Shown: piece by piece, positions 17,617-42,266 of the stretch
Layout of the letters: each line of letters begins with the position of its first letter
Position numbering within the stretch: the first letter of the stretch is position 1
From: a virus
Direction: 5' to 3' (one strand)
DNA: 64,000 nucleotides
IMG/VR virus record: IMGVR_UViG_3300033273_000374
Span: 126,001 to 190,000 of that record
The notes under the pieces: generated by a model
Database searches by the model: none
Seen by the model: the letters and a program-made list of their open reading frames with translations, nothing else
Told to the model about the DNA's origin: nothing
Made by a program: the position numbers and the translations under genes

Positions 17617-17621
17617 GTAGT

Positions 17622-17629: not shown

Positions 17630-17635
17630 GAAAAA

Positions 17636-17893: not shown

Positions 17894-17988
17894 AAGTCCA
17901 CCCTACTGGTTCGTATAATTGACGCTTGAGTGTTTTATATGTGCCTGTGTATTGCCTAGTGTGTGCCTTGTAGCATCACTATTATTTA

Positions 17989-18429: not shown

Positions 18430-18829
18430 GCAACGGATCCTCGTCTCTCAAATACAAGCCCAATTCAATCAATGCACTTTGATTCTTGCATTCTATACAA
18501 TCAACACTATTATACGACATAAACCGCAAACACTGCAACCTATTTGTGCCCATGTACACACCCCAAATCATACCATCCTCGTTCACCACAGGAGGATTGA
18601 TGTGTGGCCACATTTCGTGTGCGCCTTTGCGTTTGTAGAAACTTGTATTCCACCAGTCCGGTGTACATTTATAATATAGTAGTGGATACCATAATCCATC
18701 ATCCATTATACGTGGTAAGTCACGCCAATACCAACGGTTGTCATTGTGCCAACTCATTGGCGATAGTTGTGATAGTTCTACACTGTGTATTCCAGGATGA
18801 TCTTGCCATAGGCTTTTACAATGTGTCAT
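18419..18829 (-). CDS. Hypothetical protein
   Basis: From ATG 18829 the product is 136 residues, rich in Trp, His and Tyr (DNRWYWRDLPRIMDDGLWYP; THCKSLWQDHPG). A longer frame reaches 18874 but would start inside the terminator hairpin, so the internal start is preferred although its ribosome-binding site is weak. No family recognised. Confidence 0.45.
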   Translation of the reverse strand: MTHCKSLWQDHPGIHSVELSQLSPMSWHNDNRWYWRDLPRIMDDGLWYPLLYYKCTPDWWNTSFYKRKGAHEMWPHINPPVVNEDGMIWGVYMGTNRLQCLRFMSYNSVDCIECKNQSALIELGLYLRDEDPLHGI

Positions 18830-18850
18830 TATGTGTGTATTTAATTCATA

Positions 18851-18883
18851 AAAAAAAGCGGTGCTAAAAAACACCGCTTTTTG
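18851..18883 (-). terminator. Intrinsic terminator after structural gene pair
   Basis: AAAGCGGTG pairs with CACCGCTTT around an eight-base loop, and the minus strand then runs into a T tract. It follows the stop of 18904-19293 and likely ends the transcript of the two paralogous structural genes. Confidence 0.85.
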
Positions 18884-18903
18884 TTTAGTAATAGTAAAGT
18901 GTA

Positions 18904-19293
18904 TTAGACGATTGCGTCTGCCAATGCACTTGTTGGACCACCTTGCTCAACTGTTGCTGAACTAAGGTCGATGCTGTCAACTGTGCCTAGTGCTCGTACT
19001 GCTGCTTGAATAACAGTTGAAGCTGCAAAGTTGCCTACTGCTGTGTCTGTTGTAAGACGCTCAATGCCTACGATTTGACGTGTGTCTGAATCGTATAGTG
19101 GGCCTAGGTATACGATTGTACCAAATGTACCTAGTAATGAGTAAACCTGTGCAAGTGTGCTTGCTGGGCCTGTCTTTCCACTTACGTCTGCTAGATAATC
19201 AATTTCGAGGTATGTAATGTCTTCTGCACCTGCTCCCATTGAAACTGGGAAAGTAGGTGTTGATGTTGGGTGTACTCTTGTTAAGTCAGCCAT
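18904..19293 (-). CDS. Small virion structural protein, paralogue 1
   Basis: The 129-residue protein starts MADLTRVHPTSTPTFPVSMG and contains QIVGIERLTTDTAVGN, then QAAVRALGTVDSIDLSSA. It resembles the neighbouring 139-residue protein in length, start and the pattern (A)-x-R-x-L-(x)n-(D/S)-LSS. The gene is 21 bases from its partner, and a strong terminator follows, as expected for abundant virion proteins. A capsid-decoration or fibre role is inferred. Confidence 0.6.
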   Translation of the reverse strand: MADLTRVHPTSTPTFPVSMGAGAEDITYLEIDYLADVSGKTGPASTLAQVYSLLGTFGTIVYLGPLYDSDTRQIVGIERLTTDTAVGNFAASTVIQAAVRALGTVDSIDLSSATVEQGGPTSALADAIV

Positions 19294-20479: not shown

Positions 20480-21726
20480 TACCATTCCTTCTTTATGACA
20501 AAGTTATTGCGGTTGAATTCAAGTCTATCATTAAACTTTACTGCACCGCCTGCTTTGCCAACTGCTACATAACCTTCAGGATTTGTAACTTCATATCCTT
20601 GGTCAGTCTTTACAAATGTTCCCATTCCTTCAACTGTATTTAACTTCTTGATCAGCATCAATTTCAAATTGTTTATTTGTTTATACACAGTGAGTATGCT
20701 GAACAGTGTGTCTTTGTTTTCTGCAAACGAATCTTGCATGTCTTGTATTCTTTGCAATCTTGCTTGTGCTGCAGGTGACTCTTCTCCACCTTTTAACTTT
20801 GAAATTTCGCCTCGCATTTTGTTTGCAAAAAAGTCTTGTAGTCCACGCAAAAATGTGTTACTGTCTCCAACACTTTGATTTTTTCTAACAAGATTGTTTA
20901 TGTAAGGCTGGACAAACTTTTTAAAGTCTGCTTGTTGTGTAACTTTATCAAACTCAGCTTTATTTGTATTAGCCAGTGTGCTGGTAATTTGTTTTATACC
21001 ACGCTGTATGATGCTGTTTTGTTTGTCACTGAGTGTGGCACTGCCTGTTACATCTTTGTAAAATGCATCATCTACCCAAACACTTGGTGTTTTCTTAAAG
21101 CCTTTTACAGCAACACCAAAACTGCTCTTCATGTCTGCAATAGTTTCACCTTCGTATGCAGTGTGGAATATAATGCCGAGGTTGGCAGCACTCATGCGTT
21201 TTGCAACATCGCTGTCTGCAGGCACTGCATATGTAATGGTGTTTGGACGGAATGTCAAGTATTCTACACCATCAATGGTTTCGTTTTTCAAACTGTCTTT
21301 GGTGAACATCATGTCGCCCTGCACAACACCCTCAATGCCCAGTTTGCTTAATTCGTCTAAACACAAGTGCAGTTTGTCCTTGACTGGGCTCTCGCCATAT
21401 ACATCATCAATCTCTTCGTGTGTGCGTCCTAGTTTGGGTGTTGCACCAAACACACTTTTTGTGCCTACAAAAAACTTACCGCTTTCTGGATCTGTGCCAC
21501 ACACAATAGCAGGTGCACCATCCCATTTAACAGTGACTTGCTGGCTACGGTCCCCACCTTGAGCCAGCATGCCACGCACACCTTCTAGGTATGCCAGTGC
21601 TTCACGAGCACCTGTGTAACCATCATCCAACACTAAATCTTCAAGATGTGTCATATGCACATTCTTGCCTGCTTTGCTTTCTATCAGCATCCAATCTCTT
21701 AGTGTGGTAATTTCTTGTAATAACAT
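20479..21726 (-). CDS. Ligase-fold phage protein (DUF6267-like)
   Basis: The 415-residue protein has QQVTVKWDGAPAIVCGTDP near residues 62-80. KWDG matches motif I (KxDG) of the ATP-dependent ligase/capping nucleotidyltransferase superfamily. EGVVQGDMMF and LGIIFHTAYEGET could be motifs III and IIIa. I associate this protein with the DUF6267 group of T4-like marine phages. The C-terminal third is helical. A covalent nucleotidyl activity is possible but untested; the neighbours are structural genes. Confidence 0.6.
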   Translation of the reverse strand: MLLQEITTLRDWMLIESKAGKNVHMTHLEDLVLDDGYTGAREALAYLEGVRGMLAQGGDRSQQVTVKWDGAPAIVCGTDPESGKFFVGTKSVFGATPKLGRTHEEIDDVYGESPVKDKLHLCLDELSKLGIEGVVQGDMMFTKDSLKNETIDGVEYLTFRPNTITYAVPADSDVAKRMSAANLGIIFHTAYEGETIADMKSSFGVAVKGFKKTPSVWVDDAFYKDVTGSATLSDKQNSIIQRGIKQITSTLANTNKAEFDKVTQQADFKKFVQPYINNLVRKNQSVGDSNTFLRGLQDFFANKMRGEISKLKGGEESPAAQARLQRIQDMQDSFAENKDTLFSILTVYKQINNLKLMLIKKLNTVEGMGTFVKTDQGYEVTNPEGYVAVGKAGGAVKFNDRLEFNRNNFVIKKEW

Positions 21727-22502
21727 TATGCAGTCTTTTCTAGTTGTGCTACAACCGCTGCTTTTAATTTAGCATCTGCATTGATAGTTTTAAGAAGTTT
21801 TGCAACTTTAGGGCTTGCTTGTGCAGGTGCTTGTGCTTGTGCTGCTGGTTGCGCACCGGCTGCTGCAGGCTTGTCTATGCTTTGTATTGCTTTCTTGTCA
21901 ACTGCAAATATAGCACTACCAATTTTTAATTGTATTTGCTCATCGCCTTGTGCATCTTTTGTGTTGAGTGTAGCAGCATCTTTGTTTACCACTGCTTGTT
22001 TCTTTTCGCCTTTGGCATTTATGTATGTAACAGTGTCACCCACTTTAGGATCAATTGCAGGACCACTAGTGGCTACACCTGCTGCTGTTGGTTCATTGGG
22101 TTTGGGTTGTGCGCCTGCGGCAGCCGCTGCGGCTGTTCCAGCGCCTTTGTCTCCTCTGTTTACAGTTTTATAAATTGTTTCTTGGTATTTGGCTTTGATT
22201 GCACCTGTGATATAAGCATCCAGTGCTTTAGAATCATCTGGATTGCCTGTGAATGGTGGTTCATTATTTTTTGGATCAGCAAAATCTACCACTTTGTTTG
22301 TTACGTCTGTGATCAGTGCTGGTGCTTCTTTAGCATACACATCTGCGCCACGAGCCTTTAGTTGTGCCATTGCTTTTGTAACATCAGCTTTGACACCTTT
22401 GAGCACTGCAGGAACCTGCTTTAATTTTTGGTTATACTCACGGTCAAGTTTCCGAGTCGCTACATCCACATCTGCTTCTAAAATTATTTGTGAAATTTTC
22501 AT
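21726..22502 (-). CDS. Structural-block protein with SH3/KOW-like C-terminal module
   Basis: The 258-residue protein has a helical N-terminal half (VDVATRKLDREYNQKLKQVP), an Ala/Gly/Pro-rich linker (GAGTAAAAAAGAQPKPNEP), a small beta module (VGDTVTYINAKGEKKQAVV; IQLKIGSAIFAVDKKAI), a second Ala/Gln linker and a helical end. The GDTV(T)YxNxKGEKK pattern resembles SH3/KOW-like barrels. It is coupled to both neighbours. The role is unknown. Confidence 0.5.
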   Translation of the reverse strand: MKISQIILEADVDVATRKLDREYNQKLKQVPAVLKGVKADVTKAMAQLKARGADVYAKEAPALITDVTNKVVDFADPKNNEPPFTGNPDDSKALDAYITGAIKAKYQETIYKTVNRGDKGAGTAAAAAAGAQPKPNEPTAAGVATSGPAIDPKVGDTVTYINAKGEKKQAVVNKDAATLNTKDAQGDEQIQLKIGSAIFAVDKKAIQSIDKPAAAGAQPAAQAQAPAQASPKVAKLLKTINADAKLKAAVVAQLEKTA

Positions 22503-22807: not shown

Positions 22808-23539
22808 ATGTCAATACAAGATAACCCTGGCGGCCATTTCGCTGAATTGGCCCGTATAGCATACATGACAGAAAAAGAAAGTAGACCTATTGCTAAAAAG
22901 ATGGGATATAAGAAAACAAAACTCATCGATCAAAACGGTGCAGAGTGTCTTTTTTTAGAAAATGACGACACACTGGTGTTAGCATTCCGTGGAACAGAGC
23001 CCAAAGAGTTCTCAGATATTAAAGCAGATCTCAAAGCATGGAAGCGTAAAAGTAAAACCTGGGGCATGGTCCACGCAGGTTTTTATGAATATCTCAATAA
23101 AATTTGGGAAAGTGTGTTAAGACACATCAACTACGGCGACAGAGAAACAAAAAAATTGTATATTTGTGGACACAGTCTTGGTGGTGCAATGGCCACACTT
23201 GCTGCAAGTCGTTTGCAAGATCGTGTGATAGGATGTTACACCTATGGATCGCCACGTGTGGGTGGTCGTGTTTGGCGTAGCAAATGCACATTTGAACATC
23301 ACAGATACGTCAACAACAATGACATTGTGCCACGTGTTCCATTTTGGATTATGGGTTTTAGACACTATGGCGAATTACACTATATCAATCATTATGGTAA
23401 TATTCGTAAACTCACAGCCTGGCAGAAGTGTAAAGATCAATGGCGTGGACGATTGAGAGCATGGCAAAAGCGTGAGTTCTTTGATGGTGCTCGAGATCAC
23501 AGCATGGTTCAATACAGTAAAAAAATTAACAAGAGTTGA
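22808..23539 (+). CDS. Class 3 lipase-family hydrolase
   Basis: The 243-residue protein has LVLAFRGTEPKEFSDIKADL (oxyanion loop region) and the nucleophile elbow ICGHSLGGAMATLAASRL (GHSLGG), then CYTYGSPRVGG and NNNDIVPRVPF supplying the Asp, with HY.NHYG or RDHSMVQY as candidate catalytic His. This is the alpha/beta-hydrolase order of class 3 lipases. No signal peptide is seen, so it acts in the cytoplasm or is freed at lysis. GGAGGAGTAGGAG precedes the ATG, an unusually strong ribosome-binding region. A role in membrane-lipid breakdown is inferred. Confidence 0.85.
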   Translation: MSIQDNPGGHFAELARIAYMTEKESRPIAKKMGYKKTKLIDQNGAECLFLENDDTLVLAFRGTEPKEFSDIKADLKAWKRKSKTWGMVHAGFYEYLNKIWESVLRHINYGDRETKKLYICGHSLGGAMATLAASRLQDRVIGCYTYGSPRVGGRVWRSKCTFEHHRYVNNNDIVPRVPFWIMGFRHYGELHYINHYGNIRKLTAWQKCKDQWRGRLRAWQKREFFDGARDHSMVQYSKKINKS

Positions 23540-23646: not shown

Positions 23647-25347
23647 ATGAAGTTACCAAACGATGCAGAGGCACAACTAAATCGATTACTAGGCGCATTC
23701 ATAAGGCAAATACCAGAGGCACCCGAATATCGAGAGAGACTGGTCGAAGAACTTGAGATCATACTCAAATTACGCTTCACCGATTACTTCCTAACAATTT
23801 GCGATGTACTGACGCTAACCGCGGACATTCCCCACATGACCAGAGGTTCAGCAGGGTCAAGTCTTGTGTGTTACCTATTAGGTATCACTGATGTGGATCC
23901 CATAAGATGGCAAATACCGGTTGCACGTTTCCTAAATCCTTTGAGGGATGACTTGCCAGATGTGGACATAGACTTTCCGCATTGGCAACAGGATACTGTG
24001 ATGCAAAGAGTATTTGCGAAATGGCCTGGTCGCAGTGCAAGAATCAGTAACTATGTGCTATACAAGGAGCGCAGTGCCCGTAGAGAAGCGGCACGCCGTC
24101 TTGGCGCATCTGGCAAACTCCCTCGCAATTTTAAGTATGAAGATTATGACATCGATAAGGAAGAGGCAATGAGGCTCGAAAAGAAACTACTAGGCAAAAA
24201 AAGATCAATATCAAAACACTGTGGTGGCATTGTGATACTAAAACACAAGGTGCCAAAAAGTCTAATCAACCAAGACAATCAGTTGATGCTGGACAAAAGA
24301 GAAGTAGAAGATTTAGAACATCTAAAAATAGACATACTGGCCAACAGAGGGTTGAGCCAACTGTTAGAAATAGACAGTGACACACCACTGGAAGCATATC
24401 CAGAACAAGATTTTGAAACATCACAACTGTTGTGTAGAGGTGATGTGCTAGGCGTAACGCAGGCTGAGTCCCCGGCCATGCGACGCCTGTTCCAAGCAAT
24501 ACAACCACAATCAAAAGCAGATTGTGTGTTTGCCACAGCACTGATTCGTCCTGTGGCCACAACAGGAAGACAAAAGGCAGCATTTTTTCAAGACTGGACA
24601 GAAAGCGCACTAGAAGATACCATAGTGTATGAAGATGATGCCATACACAAAATAGCAAACCTAATTGGTTGCGACATGTATGAAGCAGACATGTATCGTC
24701 GTGCATTTGCAAAACGTGACGAAGAACGTGTGATGGAATTTATGGGCAAGATGGGAGAATGTGAAGACAAAGAACAGATTATCCAAGAACTGTATGGCTT
24801 GGGTAACTTTGGGTTGTGTAGAGCACATGCTGTGAATCTTGGAAGGCTGATTTGGGCATTAGCATATCAAAAAGCACACAACCCAAAGGATTTTTGGCGT
24901 GCTGCACTCAAACACTGTGTGGGATCATACAGACGTTGGGTACACAAAACGGAAGCAAAGAATGCGGGGTGGGATCTACGTGAACTGGGTTATGAGAATG
25001 GCATCACCAGCACACCACAAGCACAGTATCGCAAACATGGTTATTGGACACAACCTGACTTTATGCCTGGTATGTTTATACAAGAAACTTGGGGCGATAG
25101 AGTAAACTTTGCAGGACTCATAGCCAATGGCAGAACATTCCGTGGTGAAAGTGGACGCTATGTTACATTTGTTACTGCAGGCATTGCCAATGGCGAGTAT
25201 GTGGACATCACAGTCAAACGTCCGTTCTCACACAAGGATCATGATGTTATTGTGGGTTCAGGTAAGATACGCATAAGCAACGGTGCACGTTACATTGAGT
25301 GTTATGATGCACAAGGTCATAGATTAGAAAAATATTTGTCAAATTGA
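23647..25347 (+). CDS. DnaE/PolC-like DNA polymerase core lacking PHP domain
   Basis: The 566-residue protein has the palm and fingers of bacterial Pol III alpha: TRGSAGSSLVCYLLGITDVDP (residues 65-85), PDVDIDF with Asp105 and Asp107 matching the catalytic pair, and HLKIDILANRG with Asp229 as the third Asp. Fingers motifs follow: GVTQAESPAMRRLF, ALIRPVATTGRQ, YEADMYRRAFAKRD, LGNFGLCRAHAVNLGRLIWA. The usual N-terminal PHP domain is absent and the tail is short, so it is about half normal size. It could be a repair or accessory polymerase, or a regulator. Plus-strand, with a structured leader. Confidence 0.75.
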   Translation: MKLPNDAEAQLNRLLGAFIRQIPEAPEYRERLVEELEIILKLRFTDYFLTICDVLTLTADIPHMTRGSAGSSLVCYLLGITDVDPIRWQIPVARFLNPLRDDLPDVDIDFPHWQQDTVMQRVFAKWPGRSARISNYVLYKERSARREAARRLGASGKLPRNFKYEDYDIDKEEAMRLEKKLLGKKRSISKHCGGIVILKHKVPKSLINQDNQLMLDKREVEDLEHLKIDILANRGLSQLLEIDSDTPLEAYPEQDFETSQLLCRGDVLGVTQAESPAMRRLFQAIQPQSKADCVFATALIRPVATTGRQKAAFFQDWTESALEDTIVYEDDAIHKIANLIGCDMYEADMYRRAFAKRDEERVMEFMGKMGECEDKEQIIQELYGLGNFGLCRAHAVNLGRLIWALAYQKAHNPKDFWRAALKHCVGSYRRWVHKTEAKNAGWDLRELGYENGITSTPQAQYRKHGYWTQPDFMPGMFIQETWGDRVNFAGLIANGRTFRGESGRYVTFVTAGIANGEYVDITVKRPFSHKDHDVIVGSGKIRISNGARYIECYDAQGHRLEKYLSN

Positions 25348-26303
25348 TCAAGTCCAAATCTAAACTGATCCATAAAACTGTCTAAATTTTCTCTAACCAG
25401 TGATAAATTTTTTTGGTGTCTATCCATATAATCCAGTTTCTTCACATTGTGATTTTCTAACAATTTACGATTAAGTTCTAGTGCATTTAAAATTCTTAGA
25501 CCCGGATGTGCTTCATATTGATAGCTGTGATCAATTACATCATCAAATACATCAAAACCTATACGTGTAAGCTGTTCTGGCATAGCATATCCACCGCAAA
25601 ATATAGGAAAACAACAACCGTGCAATGTCATTAAATATTTTTCTGTAATTATGCAACCTTTTTCCCAAAAGACAGGTTCAGTAATAATACTAAAAGTACT
25701 GGAACAAAACTTTTCACTAAAAATAGCATTCCACAATTGGGAATGAGGCTTTCCGTTGTCATACTCTGGTGGATTGGTAATTCCTTCAAAAGGTATAAAT
25801 TTTTTCTCTAAAAAACTATCAAATTTATATGGTGTTAAACGAGTGAATTCATCAATCATTATAAAGTGTTCGTTTTCTATTTCCCAACTTTGAGTATACT
25901 CAAAATCTATATGTCTATTTTGACTGAACCATGCGCTAACAAGAAGTCTATTTTCTCTACGCTTATTCATCATAACGAAACAATTTTTTTCGTCTGAATA
26001 TTCTGCTGCAGAGACATTTTTTAAGAAATCTTTACAGTTTTTTAATAAAATATACGGAATATATGTGTAAGGATATGGGAAATCTTTCCAATACAGGTAT
26101 TCCCACCACACATGCTCTACATTTACATTTTGTTTTTTGATAATTGACTCTATGCTATTGTAAGACTTGTCTATGTAAATACCTTCGTCGTTGTATTCAA
26201 TTTTAGCATCCTCCCACGACACCGGTGGTTGATGATCTATAACAAATACCCAGCCATCATTGCCTGGCTTGATTATACCATCTGCTGTATCAATTAAAAG
26301 CAT
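25317..26303 (-). CDS. Glycosyltransferase-like protein, paralogue family A
   Basis: The 328-residue protein shares the C-terminal signature of 13249-14337: GCIITEKYLMTLHGCCFPIF, then LTRIGFDVFDDVIDHSYQYE. The AGRPF element is replaced by HGCCFPIFCGG, so this copy is divergent. The N-terminal half contains FVMMNKRRENRLLVSAWF, resembling the core of the third copy (VCMNRHDKPHRRIAYSKL). It overlaps the end of the DnaE-like gene convergently by 31 bases. Likely a transferase of GT10-like fold; the acceptor is unknown. Confidence 0.6.
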   Translation of the reverse strand: MLLIDTADGIIKPGNDGWVFVIDHQPPVSWEDAKIEYNDEGIYIDKSYNSIESIIKKQNVNVEHVWWEYLYWKDFPYPYTYIPYILLKNCKDFLKNVSAAEYSDEKNCFVMMNKRRENRLLVSAWFSQNRHIDFEYTQSWEIENEHFIMIDEFTRLTPYKFDSFLEKKFIPFEGITNPPEYDNGKPHSQLWNAIFSEKFCSSTFSIITEPVFWEKGCIITEKYLMTLHGCCFPIFCGGYAMPEQLTRIGFDVFDDVIDHSYQYEAHPGLRILNALELNRKLLENHNVKKLDYMDRHQKNLSLVRENLDSFMDQFRFGLDQFDKYFSNL

Positions 26304-26308
26304 CTAAA

Positions 26309-27709
26309 CTAGCCACTTTGCTTCAATCCAGCCAACATATCTTTTAGTTTACTGCTCTGTACACTGGCTGTAATCTTGCCTACATCCTCATCACCTGCTT
26401 CAGCAACACCAGCATTGTCTTTTGACTTGATTTGTTCATAGATACTGCTTGATTGTTTCTTGAACTGTTGATATTCTTCATCCTCGCCCAAGTCTCTGAT
26501 GCGCAAACTTTCAACATCAAACTCTAAATCAATCTTTTGTCCAACACCACTTGAACTACGTGTTTTCATAAGTTGCAATTGATAGCGTCCACGTTCACGC
26601 ATTGCTCTACTTGTAAAGATACCAAACACATTGTCTGCAGTGTTGATCTTACTCAAGCCACCTGCAATCATGCTGTGATCAAATTCAATTTCTTCAACTG
26701 CACTACGATTCAACTGACTTGCTGTAACAAACACACAGTTTAATTCTTTGGCTAAGTTGCGCAGTTCTTCACTCACATACTTGTCTTTAACAAACAGGTC
26801 ATTGGGCGATACCTTGGCACTCACTGGCATGATCAAATCCAAATAGTCAATCAACAAAAAATCAATCTTCCAACCTAGTTTGATCTGCAGTTCTTTAAGG
26901 TATGCCCGTATGTCATTTACATTGCTCTGTGCTGGCATGTATTTGATCTGTAAACGGCCTGCTTTTTTGCCTACCATACGAACTTTCATTTCAACAGTGT
27001 CAAGATCTTTAAACACCTCCTTGGTTGACACATTGGTCATCATGCTGTCAATGCGCATTGCACTCAAGCCTTCTGAAAGTTCCAGTGTGAGATACACACC
27101 ATTTAACCCGCTAGTAGTCCAATTGACTGCTAGATTCTGCATGAACAAACTTTTGCCTGACCCTGATCCACCTGCAAATATATTGAGTTCACCCTTGTTC
27201 ATGCCGCCAAACAGTTTCCTATCCACTGCTGGCCACCCTGTTGAAATCTGTCCATTGTTGTCTTTGAGTGCCATAAGTCTGGCTCTTGGATCAGCAAAGT
27301 AGTCTGTGCCCATGTCTTTTGTGAGACTGATTTGTACAGCATCTTTGATGATCTTTTCAACAGGGTCGTATTCGCCTTTCTCAAGCAAGTCTGCACTTTT
27401 GAGAATGGCACGTTCTAGTTCTTGCCGCTTGGTGAATCCTTCAAACTCTGCAAGAAACCAGTCGTTGTGACTTTCAGTTACGTCTGGCACTGGCTTTAGT
27501 TCTACACCTGTCACAGCCTGCACCTGCTCTCTTGTGGGCAGTGTGCCATGATCCTTGCTGTGTGTGTCTATGAACTGTGCAGTGTCTCGCAAACTACGAT
27601 CAAAGTTGTCTACATTGAAAATGTTTTGCACCCGCACAAAGTTTTGTGCATCGTTAAGCATCATTTCTAAAAATAATTTTTGTAAGTCTGGTGTATATTC
27701 TTTTGTCAT
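26309..27709 (-). CDS. Replicative DNA helicase (DnaB/gp41-like)
   Basis: From MTKEYTPDLQKLF (ATG overlapping the previous stop as ATGA) the product is 466 residues. It has a helical N-terminal domain and a RecA-type C-terminal domain with Walker A GGSGSGKSLFMQNLA, Walker B IDFLLIDYLDLI and a ASQLNRSAVEEIEFDHSMIA motif typical of DnaB/gp41 helicases. It should unwind the fork with the gp61-like primase encoded about 2 kb upstream in the same run. Length matches T4 gp41. Confidence 0.9.
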   Translation of the reverse strand: MTKEYTPDLQKLFLEMMLNDAQNFVRVQNIFNVDNFDRSLRDTAQFIDTHSKDHGTLPTREQVQAVTGVELKPVPDVTESHNDWFLAEFEGFTKRQELERAILKSADLLEKGEYDPVEKIIKDAVQISLTKDMGTDYFADPRARLMALKDNNGQISTGWPAVDRKLFGGMNKGELNIFAGGSGSGKSLFMQNLAVNWTTSGLNGVYLTLELSEGLSAMRIDSMMTNVSTKEVFKDLDTVEMKVRMVGKKAGRLQIKYMPAQSNVNDIRAYLKELQIKLGWKIDFLLIDYLDLIMPVSAKVSPNDLFVKDKYVSEELRNLAKELNCVFVTASQLNRSAVEEIEFDHSMIAGGLSKINTADNVFGIFTSRAMRERGRYQLQLMKTRSSSGVGQKIDLEFDVESLRIRDLGEDEEYQQFKKQSSSIYEQIKSKDNAGVAEAGDEDVGKITASVQSSKLKDMLAGLKQSG

Positions 27710-28686
27710 TTCCAACCTAATTTATCAATACGATCTAAAATTTTTTCACTGTACATTTGATGTGTGAGTGGGCCCGGGTGCATATTGTCTGTGCCATAGT
27801 CTAAAAAGTAACTATCGTGCTCAATTCCACATTGTTCATCTATCAATAGAAAATTTGATTGTGTACATAGCACTGAACTAATTTCTACGTCTACATGTAT
27901 GCCTACTAGCAATAGTTCAACACCTAGTTTTTTGCAAAAGTTTTCAACTTGTCGTATAGCCCTCATTCCAACATGATGCCAATGACGATCTGATATCATT
28001 TTTTGTGTGATTATTCCTTTGAAATTTTTTGCTTCTGGTCGATCAAAAAAATGTATTCCTATGTGTTGTACACTATTACCTGTTATGTACCACGGAAGTC
28101 TATTGGTGTATGTTAATCCCCAAATAACTTTATCACCTTTTTGTAGATCTGCTCTCAGCAATTGATCACTTTGCCATTGTAAACTAGTTCTAGACTGTGC
28201 TAGATTTACAGTAGGAATATTTAGTTTGTTGCTAATAGATTTCCAATAAACTTCATCAAAATCTATAGCCTCTCCTGCTGTTGTGCTGCATCCTATAATC
28301 CATAGATTACTATCTTGTGACAATCTTGGTTTTATGGTGGGTGCATCTAGTGCTGGAGTTTTATCTATCTCAAATATGGTTTGCTGCAATGTTGATATTA
28401 TTTTACAGTAAACATAAGAAGTTTGTGCCATGCTGAATCTATCATCAACAGTTGCACCATCAGACCATACATCATCATTGGGAGAACAATAAATGATTTG
28501 AGTTGCTTTAAACAATAGATCAATTAATCCTTTAACACCAACATCAGCAATGCTGGTATATATAACTCCAATGTGATTGCGATCTATATTACTATATTCC
28601 ACTAGGTAAGCATTAGGGTCAATCTCGTGCGCACGGTCTGACAGATAATTTGTACTATCGCCAACTATCACTGTTAAATTATTCAT
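27706..28686 (-). CDS. SGNH-hydrolase-like protein (copy 1)
   Basis: From ATG 28686 (TAATG overlap with the radical SAM gene) the product is 326 residues. Residues about 130-145 read NLWIIGCSTTAGEAIDFDEV, a block I-like G-C-S start, then TVNLAQSRTSLQWQSDQLL (block II), KVIWGLTYTNRLPW (block III-like) and a C-terminal DNMHPGPLTHQM with the HPG..H pattern. It differs from the other five copies by an extra 130-residue N-terminal domain. SGNH proteins cut or move acyl groups; the substrate is unknown. Confidence 0.6.
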   Translation of the reverse strand: MNNLTVIVGDSTNYLSDRAHEIDPNAYLVEYSNIDRNHIGVIYTSIADVGVKGLIDLLFKATQIIYCSPNDDVWSDGATVDDRFSMAQTSYVYCKIISTLQQTIFEIDKTPALDAPTIKPRLSQDSNLWIIGCSTTAGEAIDFDEVYWKSISNKLNIPTVNLAQSRTSLQWQSDQLLRADLQKGDKVIWGLTYTNRLPWYITGNSVQHIGIHFFDRPEAKNFKGIITQKMISDRHWHHVGMRAIRQVENFCKKLGVELLLVGIHVDVEISSVLCTQSNFLLIDEQCGIEHDSYFLDYGTDNMHPGPLTHQMYSEKILDRIDKLGWK

Positions 28687-29570
28687 TAACATTTTCCACA
28701 GTTAAAAACGCAATAGTCATAACGTTCAGTTTGTATTGTACTATAGAATTCGTCAAAATACCTAATTTGTTCACTGAGTTTGGTTGTTGTTATGTTGTGT
28801 TTGCTACGATCATGCCACCATTTGCTTTTATAATAAAATTCATAATGAGTCATCATACAACAAGGACTATAAATTCCTCTTGAACTTATGTAGTGTTCAA
28901 CTCCAGTTTTGCATATTGGATCTATCTCAAAATCTTTTTGATTTTGTTTTTTATAAAGTTGTTGAACTGTGTCACGTGGACCTATGTATTTTGTAGGTCT
29001 TAATGGATCATCGTTCAACCAACGATCGCTTGGCTCTACTCTAAATTCGTCAATACCAAAACTGTTGGCAATCTTTCTGGTATGTTCTATATCATGTTCA
29101 TTGAAACTAAAAGGTATATACCTCCACATTGTTCTAGCTGGACCTGCAACACATTCTTCTATGCCAATTTTTATAGTGTTCCAGTCTGCATTTACTCGGT
29201 ACTGAGTAAAGTTTTCGGGTGTGCCATCAATACTAAATTTTACACTATCAATTGGGCGTAGCACTTGATTAAACTTTTGCCACCAATTGCGAGTCTTGTA
29301 ACTTCCGTTAGTAGTGATATGCATGCGATTGCATTTTTTTGTTAGCACATCAACTAGTTCTATAAACTTGCGATGATATATTGGATCACCTGTATTACCG
29401 CATAAATTAATATCGTCTACTGGTGTATCTATAAATGATTCTAATGCATCTATATCAATGTCGTTTATAGCAAAGTTTTTCTTTCCAAACCTGTCCATAA
29501 AAGTTGTGCGCTCGCATCTAGGACATGCAAGTGTACATCTGCTAGTGGGTTCAATGTGCAAACTAACCAA
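28686..29570 (-). CDS. Radical SAM/SPASM protein
   Basis: The 294-residue protein starts (TTG) VSLHIEPTSRCTLACPRCER with the CxxxCxxC cluster site at the N-terminus, continues as a partial barrel (DDINLCGNTGDPIYHRKFIEL, KFSIDGTPENFTQYR) and ends in a SPASM-like cysteine set (CKTGVEHY, SPCCMM, YDYCVFNCGKC). Such enzymes modify peptides or sugars or act as dehydrogenases. It lies between primase and an SGNH gene and overlaps both. No precursor peptide was identified. The start codon is uncertain. Confidence 0.8.
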   Translation of the reverse strand: MVSLHIEPTSRCTLACPRCERTTFMDRFGKKNFAINDIDIDALESFIDTPVDDINLCGNTGDPIYHRKFIELVDVLTKKCNRMHITTNGSYKTRNWWQKFNQVLRPIDSVKFSIDGTPENFTQYRVNADWNTIKIGIEECVAGPARTMWRYIPFSFNEHDIEHTRKIANSFGIDEFRVEPSDRWLNDDPLRPTKYIGPRDTVQQLYKKQNQKDFEIDPICKTGVEHYISSRGIYSPCCMMTHYEFYYKSKWWHDRSKHNITTTKLSEQIRYFDEFYSTIQTERYDYCVFNCGKC

Positions 29571-30528
29571 GGCGTTTTCTCAACAGATTAATTTTTAAAC
29601 TGTTTGATTGTTTTGCATCAAGTATGCTTTTGAGTGTAAACAGTTTACCATAACGCACAACAGCATCATTTACATCTTTAACATCGTTGTGCCATTCAGG
29701 AAAACTCACACTCCATCCATATTCTAATGCATCATCTATCAAACGTTGTCCTGCTCTATCTCTGTCCGGCACCAATATAACTTCTCTAGCCAATGTGTCA
29801 ATGATTTGTGCTTGTTGTTCACTGCACTGATTGCTCATTATGCCCACACCACCTATGCACATTGCATCCAACAGTCCTTCAGTGACCACACAAAACCTAG
29901 CATTAGACAACTGATTATCAATACCATACACATAGCCACTGTCATGGTTAGTAAAGTATTTGGGTCTACCTGTATCGTCTGTGGTCCTTGCACTGAATCC
30001 TATAACTTCGTTGTTCCAAGTGAAAGGCACAATGATGCGTTTCCACATGCCTGCAGGTTTGCTGTTGCTCCATAATAATTTATGCACAGGCAAACATCTG
30101 TCAACAGCATACTGTTGTATGTGTTTGGGCGCACGATCTAATGCTACCACTCCTTCTGGCAATGGTCGAGGTTTAAACTCTACAACAATAGCATCTTCGT
30201 CTGGTTCCAACAGTTCAACTGTGTCTTTGATACGCAGTGCTTCAATGTTTAGCATCTGTCGTGTGTTTTCGTCAATGCCCAACCATGTAAGCAGTTTGCG
30301 CAGTTTAAAACTGATGTGCCGGCCGGGCTGCCAGCCTGTTTTAAATCCACAGTTGAAACAGTGATAACTCACAGCATCACCATTCATTATCACACCGCCT
30401 CTGCCTCTACGATCTGTGCTTTCGCCATTGTGATGACAGCATACAGCATTAAACGAAATCCAACCACCACTGCTGGTTTTACGCTTGCCAGGCAACGCAT
30501 CAAATACACTTTGTTGTATACTATTCAT
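29563..30528 (-). CDS. DNA primase (gp61-like, zinc ribbon plus Toprim)
   Basis: The 321-residue protein has a zinc-binding N-terminus (AVCCHHNGE and HCFNCGFK, residues about 28-63) and a Toprim core: FCVVTEGLLDAMCIGG (acidic Glu) and VILVPDRDRAGQRLIDDA (DxD), as in T4 gp61 and DnaG. It makes RNA primers with the helicase. Its ATG lies six bases after a TATAAT box, so the message may be leaderless. It ends by overlapping the radical SAM gene. Confidence 0.88.
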   Translation of the reverse strand: MNSIQQSVFDALPGKRKTSSGGWISFNAVCCHHNGESTDRRGRGGVIMNGDAVSYHCFNCGFKTGWQPGRHISFKLRKLLTWLGIDENTRQMLNIEALRIKDTVELLEPDEDAIVVEFKPRPLPEGVVALDRAPKHIQQYAVDRCLPVHKLLWSNSKPAGMWKRIIVPFTWNNEVIGFSARTTDDTGRPKYFTNHDSGYVYGIDNQLSNARFCVVTEGLLDAMCIGGVGIMSNQCSEQQAQIIDTLAREVILVPDRDRAGQRLIDDALEYGWSVSFPEWHNDVKDVNDAVVRYGKLFTLKSILDAKQSNSLKINLLRKRLG

Positions 30529-34503: not shown

Positions 34504-34850
34504 TAGATTTTTTTCTAGCACTTGTTATAAAGCACTTCATTGTGGACCTTGGTATGCAACCATATCTAGGCAAACGTCAGAAACAGAACTATATCAGTGA
34601 TGCACATCAACACTATATGGAACATTTCTTAGGCACACTGATAGTGTGTATTTTCTTTATCAATCCTGTATTTGCCTTTGCGGCTGCCACATTAGACTAT
34701 CTAGCACACTGGCACGTAGATTTTGCTAAACATCGTATTAACAATTGGTTAGAATTAAGACCTAGGTCATACACATGGTGGTGGACAAATGTTGGTGATC
34801 AAATAGCACACATAGTCACATACTACGCACTTGTTAGAATATTCATGTGA
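34500..34850 (+). CDS. Membrane protein, DUF3307-like
   Basis: The 116-residue protein has IDFFLALVIKHFIVDLGMQPYLG, conserved histidines (DAHQHYMEHFLG, LAHWHVDFAKH) and two or three hydrophobic segments (TLIVCIFFINPVFAFAAA). Histidine-rich DUF3307-type inner-membrane proteins share this arrangement. Function is unknown. It ends 35 bases from the convergent minus-strand gene. Confidence 0.6.
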   Translation: MIDFFLALVIKHFIVDLGMQPYLGKRQKQNYISDAHQHYMEHFLGTLIVCIFFINPVFAFAAATLDYLAHWHVDFAKHRINNWLELRPRSYTWWWTNVGDQIAHIVTYYALVRIFM

Positions 34851-34884
34851 GTGTATGGATTTTATTAAAAAAATCACGCTATTG

Positions 34885-35457
34885 TTATTTTTTTTCTATT
34901 TCTTCAATAAGGTTCATGTGAACAACTACTAATTGCGAATAGGCTATGGAATGCGACTTCTTAAAAAAGTATGTGTCATCTGTGGGACGTTGCCAAACAC
35001 TTGCTCCAACAGTGGCCCAATCTTTTCCACGTAGGTGTGCTTTGCCTGGGCGTATCACTGCAAGCAACATGGCCATTCTTGCCACACTGTCAGGACGCAT
35101 GTTTGCCACAAGATCATAATGATTGCCTATGTGTATGATTTGCTCGCAGTATTCTCTGTCAGTCCACAGTCTACTCCAATTGGGTTCTGTGTGCATTAGA
35201 TCAATCAAATGCAATTCATCACGCACATGCTCATACATACTAACGTTTAGCAAGTCTAGTTTAAAATAGCCTAATTCTTCTGCATGTTCGTGTTCAAGTG
35301 TGGCAATGCCATCCATTGCTGCAGGAATATCTGTAAAGTACACGCCGGTGTTGTGTTGACGACCAGTGTTTAGTCTTGCAGGTGTACCATGTATGTGTTT
35401 TAGCACACTGGTGCGATCTGCAAAATCTATATCAATATCAGGATTTGTCTTTACCAT
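34885..35457 (-). CDS. Minimal DnaE-palm-like protein (190 aa)
   Basis: Starting at MVKTNPDIDIDFADRTSVLK (ATG 35457, 7-base overlap with the previous gene) the product keeps the Pol III alpha catalytic motifs in a very small frame: PDIDIDF (Asp7, Asp9), RQHNTGVYFTDIP (the HxxGV element), GYFKLDLLNV (Asp68 as third Asp), IRPGKAHLRGK and FFKKSHSIAYSQLVVV (the fingers KSHxxxY helix). Most of the palm insert and all other domains are missing. It could be an inactive regulator, a minimal nucleotidyltransferase or a partner of the 566-residue DnaE-like protein. The longer frame to 35523 overlaps the upstream gene and lacks family support. Confidence 0.65.
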   Translation of the reverse strand: MVKTNPDIDIDFADRTSVLKHIHGTPARLNTGRQHNTGVYFTDIPAAMDGIATLEHEHAEELGYFKLDLLNVSMYEHVRDELHLIDLMHTEPNWSRLWTDREYCEQIIHIGNHYDLVANMRPDSVARMAMLLAVIRPGKAHLRGKDWATVGASVWQRPTDDTYFFKKSHSIAYSQLVVVHMNLIEEIEKK

Positions 35458-35660
35458 AGTTGCAAAGTCTTTCCATTTCCTGCTATAATCATAACACACG
35501 TTACAATGTGTAACACTATCCAAAATGTCCTAGCCCATAAAGCACGTTTTACATCTCGTTGAGTGATAGGCAAAAACTCAGGTTTGTCATCGTCAGTGAG
35601 TCCAATTGGCATGCCAACAGTTCTTGCCCACCATTTTAGCCAACGGCGTTGGCCACTCAT
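35451..35660 (-). CDS. Small membrane protein
   Basis: The 69-residue protein has a basic Trp-rich N-terminus (MSGQRRWLKWWARTVGMPIG) and one hydrophobic segment (FWIVLHIVTCVMIIAGNG). It links the MazG-like gene to the minimal DnaE gene through short overlaps. Function unknown. Confidence 0.5.
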   Translation of the reverse strand: MSGQRRWLKWWARTVGMPIGLTDDDKPEFLPITQRDVKRALWARTFWIVLHIVTCVMIIAGNGKTLQLW

Positions 35661-36456: not shown

Positions 36457-36606
36457 CTAGTCTTCCTTTTGTGATGCTAGTTCAGCAAACCTTTTTGCAA
36501 TGGTTCTCAATACTTCAGCATCAATATTAGCAGCACCCCAATGTTCAACGCTATGTGCGATGCTATTTAATTTTTTTAACATTTCGTTGTCTGTCATTTC
36601 CATCAT
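36457..36606 (-). CDS. Small hypothetical protein (49 aa)
   Basis: MMEMTDNEMLKKLNSIAHSV, then EHWGAANIDAEVLRTIAKRF, is a helical acidic protein whose ATG overlaps the TGA of gcvH (ATGA). Coupling and helical periodicity support it as real. No family recognised. Confidence 0.5.
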   Translation of the reverse strand: MMEMTDNEMLKKLNSIAHSVEHWGAANIDAEVLRTIAKRFAELASQKED

Positions 36607-36968
36607 GCAATGAACTCTCGATACTGTTCTTCGGTCATTAGTGCGTCCATATCATCCCAATTGTCTGGAACCATTTTAAAGAACCAGCCATTATCAAGTG
36701 GTTCACGGTTGACTAGTTCTGGATCATCTATCAACAATGGATTTACTTCTACAATTGTTCCAGCAATAGGACAGTAAACATCACTTGCTGCCTTGACACT
36801 TTCAACAACTGCACAGTCAGCATTTGCACCAAAGCTACTGTCAACTGGAGGTAGGTCAACAAAAACAATATCTCCCAACTGATTGACAGCATACTCCGAT
36901 ATTCCAACTATGAGAACATCATCTTCTCTTCGTAACCATTCATGTTCGTCTGTGTATCTTATTGTCAT
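36603..36968 (-). CDS. gcvH: Glycine cleavage system H protein (lipoyl carrier)
   Basis: The 121-residue protein follows GcvH along its length: YTDEHEWLRREDDVLIVGIS at the start, YAVNQLGDIVFVDLP, then the lipoylation site AVVESVKAASDVYCPIAGTI with Lys59 in ESVKAASD, and ELVNREPLDNGWFFKM near the end. GcvH shuttles the aminomethyl group between the P, T and L proteins. No P, T or L gene lies in this window, so it would work with host enzymes or supply lipoyl groups. It is full length with intact motif, so probably functional. Confidence 0.92.
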   Translation of the reverse strand: MTIRYTDEHEWLRREDDVLIVGISEYAVNQLGDIVFVDLPPVDSSFGANADCAVVESVKAASDVYCPIAGTIVEVNPLLIDDPELVNREPLDNGWFFKMVPDNWDDMDALMTEEQYREFIA

Positions 36969-37267
36969 TAATAAACACCTTGCTTTTTTAGTCTATTGTA
37001 TAAACTTTTAAGTTTGTCCAGTTCTGGATGTTTTTGCACCCACATGCCAGTGTCAGGAATAAAAATTTCTTTAAAGAATTTATCCATTACCTCATGCCCA
37101 GTGGCAATACTGGGTATCACTTGGTCTGCTAGTGCATCAAACTCTGCATCAGTAATGATGCTGTCATTGTCAAATTCATATGCATATGCAGCAAGAGCAA
37201 GACGTATTCTAATACGTCGTTGCTTGTCAACTGCGGCTTGTAGTTCACTTGGTATAGGAGGGCCCAT
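36968..37267 (-). CDS. Small helical protein resembling NAD-ligase N-terminal helix pair
   Basis: The 99-residue protein contains AYAYEFDNDSIITDAEFDAL, which echoes the NAD-dependent DNA ligase N-terminal pattern (Y-x-x-D-x-P-x-x-D-x-E-Y-D). There is no nucleotidyltransferase domain, so it is not a ligase. It is coupled to gcvH and the P-loop kinase. The role is unknown. Confidence 0.5.
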   Translation of the reverse strand: MGPPIPSELQAAVDKQRRIRIRLALAAYAYEFDNDSIITDAEFDALADQVIPSIATGHEVMDKFFKEIFIPDTGMWVQKHPELDKLKSLYNRLKKQGVY

Positions 37268-37689
37268 TATTGATTACGCTCCATCCAGGTTTGGACAACA
37301 GGCATCAATTGTTCGTGTGTGTCATTAAACCATGCACTAACATGATAATCACAGTGCGGAGGTTGTTCAAACATTTTGTTAGTATCTTCAAAGCGGCCTT
37401 CTCTAATTGTGTCCATCCACACAGTAAAGTCTGGTGCAAATTCTGTTCTTGCTGCTTCTGTAGGACACACAAAGTCTGCTATAGCAATTTTACCTGCCAT
37501 CACCACACCATCTGACAGATAACGCATACGCAATGCTTGGCGCATACGTCCTTCAGTTGAGAAATCCCAATCGTCGTAACGTTCTCTCACCTGATCAGCG
37601 TTGATCCATACACCACCAATTAATTTGGCAAATGGTTCTGCAAGTGTGCTTTTGCCGCTGCCGGGCAATCCAAAAATTAATATTTTCAT
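37267..37689 (-). CDS. P-loop kinase, adenylylsulfate-kinase-like
   Basis: The 140-residue protein begins MKILIFGLPGSGKSTLAEPF with Walker A GLPGSGKS at residues 7-14, then WINADQVRERYDDWDFSTEG and IAIADFVCPTEAAR, the order seen in APS kinases (CysC) and related small-molecule kinases. It is somewhat shorter than CysC. It might serve the sulfotransferase-like genes of this phage by making PAPS, but this is a guess from fold and neighbours. Confidence 0.7.
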   Translation of the reverse strand: MKILIFGLPGSGKSTLAEPFAKLIGGVWINADQVRERYDDWDFSTEGRMRQALRMRYLSDGVVMAGKIAIADFVCPTEAARTEFAPDFTVWMDTIREGRFEDTNKMFEQPPHCDYHVSAWFNDTHEQLMPVVQTWMERNQ

Positions 37690-37691
37690 TA

Positions 37692-38549
37692 CTATTCCTC
37701 GTCTCTAGTTGCTCGAACTGGTTTATAATTTAACATGTTGTGTGGATATTCGTTTTCCCATATCTCTATTTCATAACCAAGGTACTGCTCAACTAAATTA
37801 TCTAGATATCCTTGTTGATATAAACAGAAATTACTAATGTCCATGTCTGAATTGGAAATAAAACATTTCATTGCACGTTCAACTTCAATCTTGGACTGTA
37901 TTACCTGTTGCTTTCGATTTATAAAATCTTGCCAACGATGTTCAATGTCATAAGAATATTCTTTACCTAAATCTGCCAATAATCGTATTAGATTGTGCTT
38001 GAAATTTTCGTAGTTGTAGAACCATTCAAAATTAAATTTGTGATCAATTGTAAATTGTTTATAGTGTACTTCTTGGCTTTGTAAATTTCCATTCAATGGA
38101 CGGAAACCTAATTTAAACATTTCTCTAAATCCTGGAACACCATTATCTTTAAAGATGTTTACTTGAGATTCTAATCCTGATGTAACTAAATCATGCCATG
38201 ATTTATTCTTAATTATTGGCAATATATCATCAAAGTCTTTAACATCTAATAGATTTAAGCCAAATTCACCTGCAGCGTGATGTACGTGCCAATTCAAAAA
38301 ATAAAGATCCGTTGGTTTAAGATGTATATAACACCAAACGTGTGTGATATTAGATTCTAAAGTTGGGTTTGGGTGTGCATGTCTAACAAGTTTTTCAAAA
38401 TTTCTGTTTGCATGTGCTCCTATAGTCTCACCTTTATCATTGTCATGATAAAAATCAAAATCAGGTGATGTTCCGCTGCTGACACTTAAACATCTAGCTA
38501 AAAAATGACCATGTGTTCCGCCTCTAAAAAGTAAAATAGGTAACGTCAT
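37692..38549 (-). CDS. Sulfotransferase-like P-loop protein
   Basis: From ATG 38549 (ATGA overlap) the product is 285 residues. It opens MTLPILLFRGGTHGHFLARC, where RGGTHGHFLARCL could replace the sulfotransferase PAPS loop (R-S-G-T-T-x-L). The rest is helical with Trp/His-rich segments (THVWCYIHLKPTDLYFLNWH). The match is weak. It lies next to the P-loop kinase. The longer frame to 38582 overlaps the zinc-finger gene and is not preferred. Confidence 0.45.
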   Translation of the reverse strand: MTLPILLFRGGTHGHFLARCLSVSSGTSPDFDFYHDNDKGETIGAHANRNFEKLVRHAHPNPTLESNITHVWCYIHLKPTDLYFLNWHVHHAAGEFGLNLLDVKDFDDILPIIKNKSWHDLVTSGLESQVNIFKDNGVPGFREMFKLGFRPLNGNLQSQEVHYKQFTIDHKFNFEWFYNYENFKHNLIRLLADLGKEYSYDIEHRWQDFINRKQQVIQSKIEVERAMKCFISNSDMDISNFCLYQQGYLDNLVEQYLGYEIEIWENEYPHNMLNYKPVRATRDEE

Positions 38550-39277
38550 AATCCTGCTTCCTTGAGTATGTGCTTGACCCATTCTGTGTCAGCATAGTAA
38601 TCTACAAACCTACGCTTCCAGTAATCTGGATCTATGTATGGAAATACCAGTTCAATTTGTTCGGTACTGAGTTTATCTAATACACCAATACCTGTATCGC
38701 AATTGTAAACGACCCAACTACTTATGCGTCCTGTGGTTATGTCATGCACAATACGATTGGGGCTAGCATATAAAAAGTAATGATTAAACACACTTTCTTT
38801 TTGTTCTGCCCAAGCAGTCATTGTTTTCAGACTGCGTTCTAGTGCATCTTGTGTTGCTTCTTTGCGCAAGTGTTCAAACAAGTATTCTTGATATAGTGCA
38901 TCCTTGCACCAATGGTCTAATTTTTTGTTTTGCTTTATAACCCAGTCAATGAACTTGGCGGTGTTTATAGCACGTATGTTGACCATGTGCCTACCAAACT
39001 TTACAAACGCATTGTAGTATGGACTTTCGCAAAAGTCTTTGTAGTTTTTTAGTTTGGCGCTGCCTTGTGTTAGTTCATAGAAACGCAAATAAGCAGTCAT
39101 GCCCAATTTGACACCTGCTTCATTTTCCTGTTGCGCACGTCGCTTGGGCTCGCACAGGTGTGCTGCAAGAGTACTTTCCTTGCGATATCCTTTTCCGCAA
39201 TATTGGCATGTGTAGTCTAGATTTTGCATTTTATGATTTATTATAGCATGTTTGATGATGCTTGTAAAGTCATTCAT
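38546..39277 (-). CDS. C2H2-like zinc-finger protein of T4-like marine phages
   Basis: The protein contains YTCQYCGKGYRKESTLAAHLC, a Cys-Cys...His-Cys finger, followed by about 200 helical residues (GMTAYLRFYELTQGSAKLKN; YNAFVKFGRHMVNIRAINTA). I associate this architecture with a conserved gene beside the replication genes of marine T4-like phages. Two starts are possible: ATG 39277, coupled by ATGA to the upstream gene, or ATG 39229 (MQNLDYTCQYC), just downstream of a TATAAT box. A DNA-binding or transcription role is plausible. Confidence 0.6.
   Translation of the reverse strand: MNDFTSIIKHAIINHKMQNLDYTCQYCGKGYRKESTLAAHLCEPKRRAQQENEAGVKLGMTAYLRFYELTQGSAKLKNYKDFCESPYYNAFVKFGRHMVNIRAINTAKFIDWVIKQNKKLDHWCKDALYQEYLFEHLRKEATQDALERSLKTMTAWAEQKESVFNHYFLYASPNRIVHDITTGRISSWVVYNCDTGIGVLDKLSTEQIELVFPYIDPDYWKRRFVDYYADTEWVKHILKEAGL
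39240..39268 (-). promoter_or_regulatory. Sigma70-like promoter before zinc-finger gene
   Basis: TTTACA, 17 bases, TATAAT on the minus strand, ten bases before the internal ATG at 39229. If used, the message would have almost no leader. Confidence 0.45.
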
Positions 39278-40808: not shown

Positions 40809-42266
40809 TTAACTCCAGTCTATTTTTTCAACCTTGAACGGGTAGTTTGCTTCTTTGTAGAAAGCCTTACGTTTGGTAAGGTGCCTTTTGGCAAATCTGC
40901 AGGTGCTTGTGATGTCCCAGATTTGGACGAAATCTTTGTCATGTGCCTTGCGAATTCCACGCCCGATACTTTGGATGACCCTAACAAAGCTCTTGCCAGG
41001 CTCAAGTAGTACAAGATTGAATATCCTAGGGATGTTAATACCAACAGCGGCAACACCATAAGTAGCAATAATAACTTTATCGCTAGATTCAGCAACTTCA
41101 TCATACTGTTCTTTCCTGTCTGCAGCCTTGGTACTGCCACTCACAAACACACTGTTTGCTATGCGCCTTTGCAGTTCTTTGCCTGCATTCACTCTATCAA
41201 CCAGTATCAGTGTATTGCCACTTTGCACAATTTGATTGACCATGCTGGCAATGTAGTCCAGTCGTTTCTCATCATCTAACAAATACTTCAATTCGCTTTG
41301 ATAGTTCTGATGCTCTTTTAAGTCTATTAATTGTAGCACATTCACTTCGCAATTTGCAAGAACTCCTTTGTCCTGCAGTTCTTTTGCACTGATTTGATTG
41401 ACAACAGGACCAATGCTGCACGTGAGTGCTACACTTTCAAACTTCTCTTTGGGTATGGTTCCTGTAAGTCCCCAACGTATGGGTATATGACTCATCACAC
41501 CTGTGAGCAGTGTCTTTAGTGCATCTGCTTTGGCTTGGTGCACCTCATCAATCATTATGCACACCACATCTTCCAAAAACTCTTGTATGGTTATTTCAGC
41601 AACTTGGTTCTTGGTGTTCTTCAGCAGCACATTCAAACTCTGCCAAGTGCATATGGTGTGAGTACGTCCAAATTCTTTTCTGTCACCAAAGAACACACCC
41701 ACATCCAGTCCCATATTGATATAGTCTGCTTCTGTTTGTGTTACAAGGCTTTTGTTGGGTACTACAATTATGGTGCGTCCATGTACTTCACAACGTTCGC
41801 TGAGTGCGGCAGTCATCAGTGTCTTGCCTGCACCTGTGGCTACTTCTTGTATGCACTGTGGATTTTCCACAAACTTGTTTATGGTTTCAATTTGATAATC
41901 ACGTAGCACAATTGGTTCGCCTGCAACAGGATGCCCTTTGGGCCATGTGCGATCTGCATATGTGTTTGCATCCACAGGCTGTAATGGATAGTCAATGGTG
42001 TATTCACGTGTGTCATTGAGGCTGGGCTCATAGCCTGCACTCACTAGTATGGGCAGTATTTCAGGCAACAGGTTGATATAGGTGCTGCCGCCCATTTGAA
42101 AGTATGCTTGTTTGCCATCCCAACGTCCAAGACGCACTGCTGGCATGTAACGTGCACCAGGAATCTCATACTTGAACTGGTTGCTTAACTTGCGACGTGT
42201 GTCCAAGTCTAAACCTTCAATCTTTACGTTTACTTCGTCCTTAACGTGTAGTATGCAAGGTTTCAT
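40809..42266 (-). CDS. uvsW: UvsW-like DNA/RNA helicase
   Basis: The 485-residue SF2 helicase begins with a UvsW-type N-terminal domain (YMPAVRLGRWDGKQAYFQMG) and has Walker A EVATGAGKTLMTAAL, the DExH box IMIDEVHQAKAD, motif III GLTGTIPKEKF and motif VI QSIGRGIRKAHDKD. T4 UvsW unwinds branched DNA and R-loops and controls the switch from origin- to recombination-dependent replication. Length fits. It overlaps the upstream SGNH gene by 26 bases. Confidence 0.9.
   Translation of the reverse strand: MKPCILHVKDEVNVKIEGLDLDTRRKLSNQFKYEIPGARYMPAVRLGRWDGKQAYFQMGGSTYINLLPEILPILVSAGYEPSLNDTREYTIDYPLQPVDANTYADRTWPKGHPVAGEPIVLRDYQIETINKFVENPQCIQEVATGAGKTLMTAALSERCEVHGRTIIVVPNKSLVTQTEADYINMGLDVGVFFGDRKEFGRTHTICTWQSLNVLLKNTKNQVAEITIQEFLEDVVCIMIDEVHQAKADALKTLLTGVMSHIPIRWGLTGTIPKEKFESVALTCSIGPVVNQISAKELQDKGVLANCEVNVLQLIDLKEHQNYQSELKYLLDDEKRLDYIASMVNQIVQSGNTLILVDRVNAGKELQRRIANSVFVSGSTKAADRKEQYDEVAESSDKVIIATYGVAAVGINIPRIFNLVLLEPGKSFVRVIQSIGRGIRKAHDKDFVQIWDITSTCRFAKRHLTKRKAFYKEANYPFKVEKIDWS

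Follow-up and report, generated by a model that had tools for sequence, protein, structure and literature searches.

T4 provides the textbook phage replisome, which contains one family B polymerase. We asked why a T4-like virus would also encode a DNA polymerase of the C family. The question was raised by a stretch of 64,000 nucleotides (hereafter, the window; positions 126001–190000 of a 202,913-bp virus record) containing an open reading frame of 566 codons with an ATG start. An earlier note, made from the window alone, had described its product as a DnaE core lacking the PHP domain, with catalytic residues D105, D107 and D229, in a T4-like phage that would also use a family B polymerase (PolB). 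Pfam matches, alignment, a structure match and a PolB gene elsewhere in the record all agreed with this description. The features discussed are listed in Table 1.

The 566-aa protein matched PF07733 (DNA_pol3_alpha; E = 5e-43, 147.9 bits against a gathering cut-off of 23.9) and the finger model PF17657 (E = 2e-13, 50.2 bits against a gathering cut-off of 22) and no other Pfam model, PHP included. Its best PHROG was the phage DnaE family phrog_405 (3e-63). In the alignment, D105, D107 and D229 corresponded to D401, D403 and D555 of E. coli DnaE, while G67/S68, R94, K227 and R351/R352 corresponded to G363/S364, R390, K553 and R709/R710, the residues that contact dNTP in Pol III alpha structures. 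The catalytic Asp and Arg/Lys set showed no variation among 46 diverse members of the single-chain family. In addition, the finger motif aligned as EDD in place of the QEQ of ordinary DnaE, a change that could alter activity.

We compared an AlphaFold2 model with Pol III alpha, as the earlier note had proposed. The model, which was built on an alignment of 46 relatives (pLDDT 83.8, pTM 0.82; residues 302–326 poorly modelled) and superseded an earlier one with a pLDDT of 72, aligned with 3e0d, the ternary complex of Taq Pol III alpha, across 516 of its 566 residues (Z 24.1, rmsd 3.8 Å, chain residues 304–1126) and 5lew over 436 residues (Z 25.8, rmsd 3.9). The protein is thereby predicted to have a Pol beta-like palm folded as in Pol III alpha, along with thumb, fingers and OB fold. 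Relative to the Taq enzyme, it lacked the roughly 300 N-terminal residues of the PHP domain as well as the tau-binding tail, and the chain stopped after the OB fold, at the position of Taq residue 1126. The "short tail" described previously is an OB fold; residues 482–566 matched SSB/PriB-type OB folds with Z of about 9 and about 7.5, the latter modest alone, and also fell on the Pol III alpha OB region of 3e0d. The HhH and beta-clamp-binding elements of DnaE sit between the fingers and the OB fold, and this stretch comprised only about 55 residues in the 566-aa protein. The protein has no proofreading domain of its own.

We then considered whether so short a protein is a complete gene product. 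In the relatives examined, the gene opened with an equivalent ATG and an in-frame stop lay between a few and about 50 codons upstream, indicating that no PHP domain was missed; a wrong start or an overlooked upstream PHP domain was ruled out on these grounds. Among viral contigs, all complete proteins at ≥41% identity were 543–578 aa long, and matches at ≤30% identity were mostly DnaEs of 900–1200 aa, with a few shortened by contig ends or frame breaks; by sequence, the single-chain family is sharply set off from other DnaEs. The family was present in more than 100 viral contigs, and its carriers are a widespread, globally spread, uncultured lineage of aquatic giant phages. A pattern-based scan of bacterial genome contigs, which is a weak search, returned no relatives. 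The median dN/dS was 0.075 across 1565 pairs (simple Nei–Gojobori counts), indicating strong purifying selection. Moreover, the polymerase retained 83–85% identity in contigs whose adjoining genes dropped to 43–60%, a level close to that of the gp41 helicase. The dN/dS value and the constant length exclude a decaying fragment. The earlier note had allowed that the protein might be a normal polymerase split with another part elsewhere; this did not hold, as the protein is complete from palm to OB fold, and the halves of a different Pol III alpha, which is indeed split and present in the record, overlap its parts rather than supply a missing one. Thus, the product of this gene is a conserved C-family catalytic core that is complete in a single chain and devoid of PHP and tau-binding domains; its activity is predicted.

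These results also bear on the idea of a decoy, or of a protein without catalytic activity, that would redirect the host replisome by binding host clamp, tau or gp41; the earlier note had suggested a decoy for clamp or tau. Such a protein is possible in principle, and the change from QEQ to EDD in the fingers would suit it. However, the tau-binding domain is absent and the catalytic Asp and Arg/Lys residues are invariant in the 46 members, which makes a decoy unlikely, and strong purifying selection also speaks against such a protein. We consider this explanation very improbable.

Table 1. Location of the polymerase gene, its motifs and associated genes in the window or in the whole record
Feature	Location	Strand	Evidence
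Single-chain PHP-less DnaE-type DNA polymerase, 566 aa	window 23647..25347	+	Pfam, PHROG, AlphaFold, structure match
D105-x-D107 codons, first two catalytic Asp (PDVDIDF)	window 23959..23967	+	aligned to E. coli DnaE D401/D403; invariant, n = 46
D229 codon, third catalytic Asp (HLKIDIL)	window 24331..24333	+	aligned to E. coli DnaE D555; invariant
C-terminal OB fold, residues 482–566	window 25090..25344	+	SSB/PriB-type OB matches and Pol III alpha OB region
Class 3 lipase-like protein	window 22808..23539	+	PF01764 2.5e-25
328-aa protein	window 25317..26303	-	no Pfam match
gp41-type replicative helicase, conserved neighbour	window 26309..27715	-	phrog_19 5e-70; T4 gp41 2e-26
Radical SAM-like protein	window 28686..29570	-	phrog_21308 3e-23; tblastn matches in 24 loci
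DnaG/gp61-like primase, same replication cluster	window 29563..30528	-	phrog_47 4e-35; Toprim_2 5e-5; TIGR01391 dnaG 5e-12
Split Pol III alpha C-half, about 190 aa (PDIDIDF and FKLDLLN motifs)	window 34885..35457	-	phmmer to Phosso XYS97594 5e-54; phrog_11778 7e-54
UvsW-like helicase	window 40809..42266	-	Pfam ResIII 5e-18, UvsW_N 0.0014
Sliding clamp	record 34812..35543		homology to Phosso gene annotated as clamp
T4-type PolB (gp43), 886 aa	record 36556..39216	-	exonuclease and polymerase motifs
Clamp loader ATPase	record 80332..81249		
Split Pol III alpha N-half, outside the window	record 83827..84354	-	

The record is T4-like, with homologues of gp43, gp41, gp44, UvsX, gp55, DexA and UvsW. 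The search for gp43 and a sliding clamp that the earlier note had recommended located both, together with a clamp loader. The PolB is complete, and its closest named relatives come from Sinorhizobium phage Phosso (51%) and Agrobacterium phage Atu_ph07 (48%); its C-terminal peptide, NTFDTLFSF, was spotted by eye. As the PolB has both exonuclease and polymerase motifs and is accompanied by a clamp and clamp loader, gp43 is the evident main replicase. Meanwhile, no PHP domain was detectable anywhere in the 202,913-bp record, in a search whose control was positive in 14/14 known genomes.

The PolB is not the only other polymerase in this record. According to Iyer et al. (2021), jumbo phages of the T4-type "group 2.2", Atu_ph07 among them, possess PolB together with a minimal Pol III alpha made up of two proteins encoded far apart; the authors suggested that strand synthesis or repair may be shared between the split enzyme and PolB (PMC7824862). 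The N-half and C-half are 177 aa and 191 aa in Phosso and Atu_ph07, and no single-chain protein was detected in these split-only phages. Both halves occur in the present record, distinct from the 566-aa protein; i.e., the lineage encodes three polymerases, two of which belong to the C family. The earlier observation of a second polymerase of a different family was right as to a C-family enzyme beside PolB, but the 566-aa protein is not the only C-family polymerase in the record. The split form (phrog_11127 and phrog_11778) resembles the single chain as a PHP-less reduced core beside a T4-type PolB in the same record and lineage; it differs in comprising two chains, whereas the 566-aa chain has a thumb, full fingers, an OB fold and the equivalents of R390, R709 and R710. 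In the alignment, the split form had no finger helix bearing R709/R710 and carried Glu in place of R390. Because these equivalents are kept in the single chain and lost or replaced in the split form, the single chain is the more complete enzyme by residue content.

Next, co-occurrence was assessed across records. The split C-half was found in 16/20 records carrying the single-chain gene; the other four comprised two short contigs and two diverged members (the 484-kb uncultured huge phage LR756508 and the 178-kb record G009). Each of the four largest records had a further polymerase in addition to the single-chain protein. This was PolB in the present record, in the 338-kb record G007 and in LR756508, and a Pol III alpha in 483-aa and 906-aa frames in G009. 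The adjoining G009 frames (55730–58246) correspond to the N-terminal and C-terminal portions of Pol III alpha and apparently represent a long form split in two. G007 repeated the combination of PolB, single chain and both split halves, and recurrence in this separate record makes a chimeric assembly unlikely. PolB was absent from 12 contigs of 31–178 kb and from shorter contigs; all of these are fragments, and so this absence is uninformative.

The gene neighbourhood links the polymerase to the replication fork genes. A gp41 gene lay within 2.8 kb of the polymerase gene in 102/119 non-redundant loci, being downstream and convergent in 72 and upstream and co-directional in 30. In nearly all of the 17 loci without a nearby gp41, the relevant flank was cut off or short. 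In some contigs, primase, gp41 and polymerase were consecutive on one strand. This linkage is consistent with a shared role, though adjacency need not mean one.

Linkage to the helicase and primase genes, together with replisome-level conservation, would also be expected of a main replicase for one strand (e.g., the lagging strand), the remaining synthesis being left to gp43 and the split Pol III. However, T4 gp43 by itself copies both strands, and the 566-aa protein has neither a tau-binding nor a proofreading domain. In addition, judged by eye, it has no C-terminal peptide resembling the PolB end. We regard a one-strand replicase as improbable, even though Iyer et al. considered for the split enzyme that the strands may be divided between polymerases, or that it serves in repair (PMC7824862).

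We examined ancestry to ask from which bacterial enzyme the single chain might derive. In a tree of 32 sequences, the single-chain family received 100% support and was placed next to DnaE2 (SH-aLRT 89.9, UFBoot 80) on long branches; an earlier, smaller tree had grouped it with DnaE2 at UFBoot 86. Among NCBIfam models, error-prone DnaE2 ranked first in 5/7 members and third and fourth in the other two, all far below cut-off; the 566-aa protein scored 179 bits against the top-ranked DnaE2 model NF004225, the cut-off of which is 939. For the LR756508 protein, DnaE1 scored above DnaE2. The nearest bacterial kin may therefore be the error-prone DnaE2, as weakly suggested by sequence comparison, and this affinity is only a hint because the branches are long and long-branch attraction could produce it.

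DnaE2 consists of a C-family core and an OB fold, with no tau-binding tail. The 566-aa protein is similar to DnaE2 (ImuC) in this layout and, for most members, in the tree and the NCBIfam ranking. It differs in that DnaE2 is about 1050 aa long, with a PHP domain and mutasome partners, neither of which was seen for the 566-aa protein. DnaE2 usually acts with ImuA/ImuB or other mutasome proteins (PMC12926913). Single-sequence searches of the 203-kb record, which may be incomplete, found no homologue of DinB, UmuC, UmuD or ImuB, i.e., no Y-family partner. The Gluconobacter oxydans plasmid pGOX1 (2541–4919) carries a shortened DnaE2: the error-prone DNA polymerase annotated there has just 792 aa, and nothing PHP-like was seen upstream of it.

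These data permit a polymerase descended from DnaE2 that has lost PHP and, when induced by damage, performs translesion synthesis or repair off the fork with UvsX, outside normal replication. The grouping in both trees, the NCBIfam ranking, the lack of exonuclease and PHP domains, and UvsX in the record are all in keeping with it. Nevertheless, the score far below the DnaE2 cut-off, the mutasome homologues missing from a record that may be incomplete, and the constant gp41 linkage with gp41-like conservation, which suggest a core role, weigh on the other side. We consider such an off-fork enzyme a candidate to be kept in view, but on balance unlikely.

The single chain shares the fold, Asp triad and dNTP-binding residues with DnaE1/DnaE3 (E. 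coli and Taq Pol III alpha); however, it is half their size, without PHP and tau-binding domains, with HhH reduced or missing and with EDD for QEQ. Full-length phage DnaE (phrog_405; Streptomyces, Mycobacterium and Pbunavirus phages, jumbo group 3.2) is likewise a phage-encoded C-family polymerase and presumably serves as the phage's own replicase, but it is about 950–1180 aa in the examples compared and at most about 30% identical to the 566-aa protein. By comparison, the LR756508 protein, of about 570 aa, is PHP-less, 39% identical over 95% and encoded in a genome with PolB, and is a distant member of the same family; it differs in that no split Pol III C-half was found in its record and gp41 is not adjacent. 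No relative of this protein turned up among viral contigs in a single-sequence scan. Its gene has neighbours resembling elongation factor G and TnpB/Cas12f (17238–19283 and 21116–22438).

Taken together, we propose that the 566-aa protein is a putative active, low-processivity, non-proofreading accessory DNA polymerase working at the gp41 helicase/primase fork or immediately behind it, with a probability of roughly 55%. The active-site set, complete and invariant in 46 members, and the Pol III alpha fold over 516 of 566 residues argue for this role, as do the dN/dS of 0.075, the gp41-like conservation and the gp41 adjacency in two orientations. Accessory status is suggested because the protein is an additional enzyme in all four largest records and gp43 is the evident main replicase; the lean to the error-prone DnaE2 was also counted in its favour. 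Meanwhile, the EDD finger motif, the weakness of the DnaE2 affinity, LR756508 without an adjacent gp41, and the absence of Y-family, UmuD and ImuB homologues from the searches were counted against it. The accessory, repair or translesion function named in the earlier note fits the possible DnaE2 affinity and the finding that each of the four largest records encodes another polymerase as well; the decoy that the note also named was not supported.

If the accessory reading is correct, the polymerase would bind duplex and dNTP as in DnaE, with the palm Asp triad holding two metals, Arg/Lys on the triphosphate and the OB fold holding the single-stranded template. It would extend primers, or bypass or restart stalled ends, over a short stretch and then pass the end to the proofreading, clamp-bound gp43. 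Eukaryotic Pol alpha and B. subtilis DnaE make the first DNA on primers. By analogy, one could imagine a fork with three polymerases, in which the PHP-less DnaE, with helicase and primase, lays the first DNA on each primer, gp43 takes over and a third task falls to the split Pol III; we offer this arrangement tentatively and think it rather doubtful.

Jumbo phages that have a reduced Pol III alpha in addition to PolB are already known from the literature, with the enzyme in its split form. Marine jumbo phages with PF07733 genes have also been noted before, without single-chain detail (PMC9123017). The single-chain PHP-less family, its coexistence with the split form and its gp41 link were not found in the open-access papers searched. 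The lineage keeps a T4-type system and adds an unrelated bacterial-type polymerase by the helicase gene, besides the known split form. A natural minimal Pol III alpha core of <600 residues, without PHP and tau domains, is useful for asking what the core alone does. Furthermore, the division of labour between polymerases becomes testable in a phage, as does the question of why one virus has two or even three DNA polymerases.

Three further genes accompany this cluster. The class 3 lipase-like gene lies directly upstream of the polymerase gene and is syntenic in 41 loci. Some relatives have the gene for the 328-aa protein inserted between the polymerase and gp41 genes, and others lack it; the site resembles a spot for mobile or variable cargo. 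Finally, the radical SAM-like gene is located between the primase and helicase genes.
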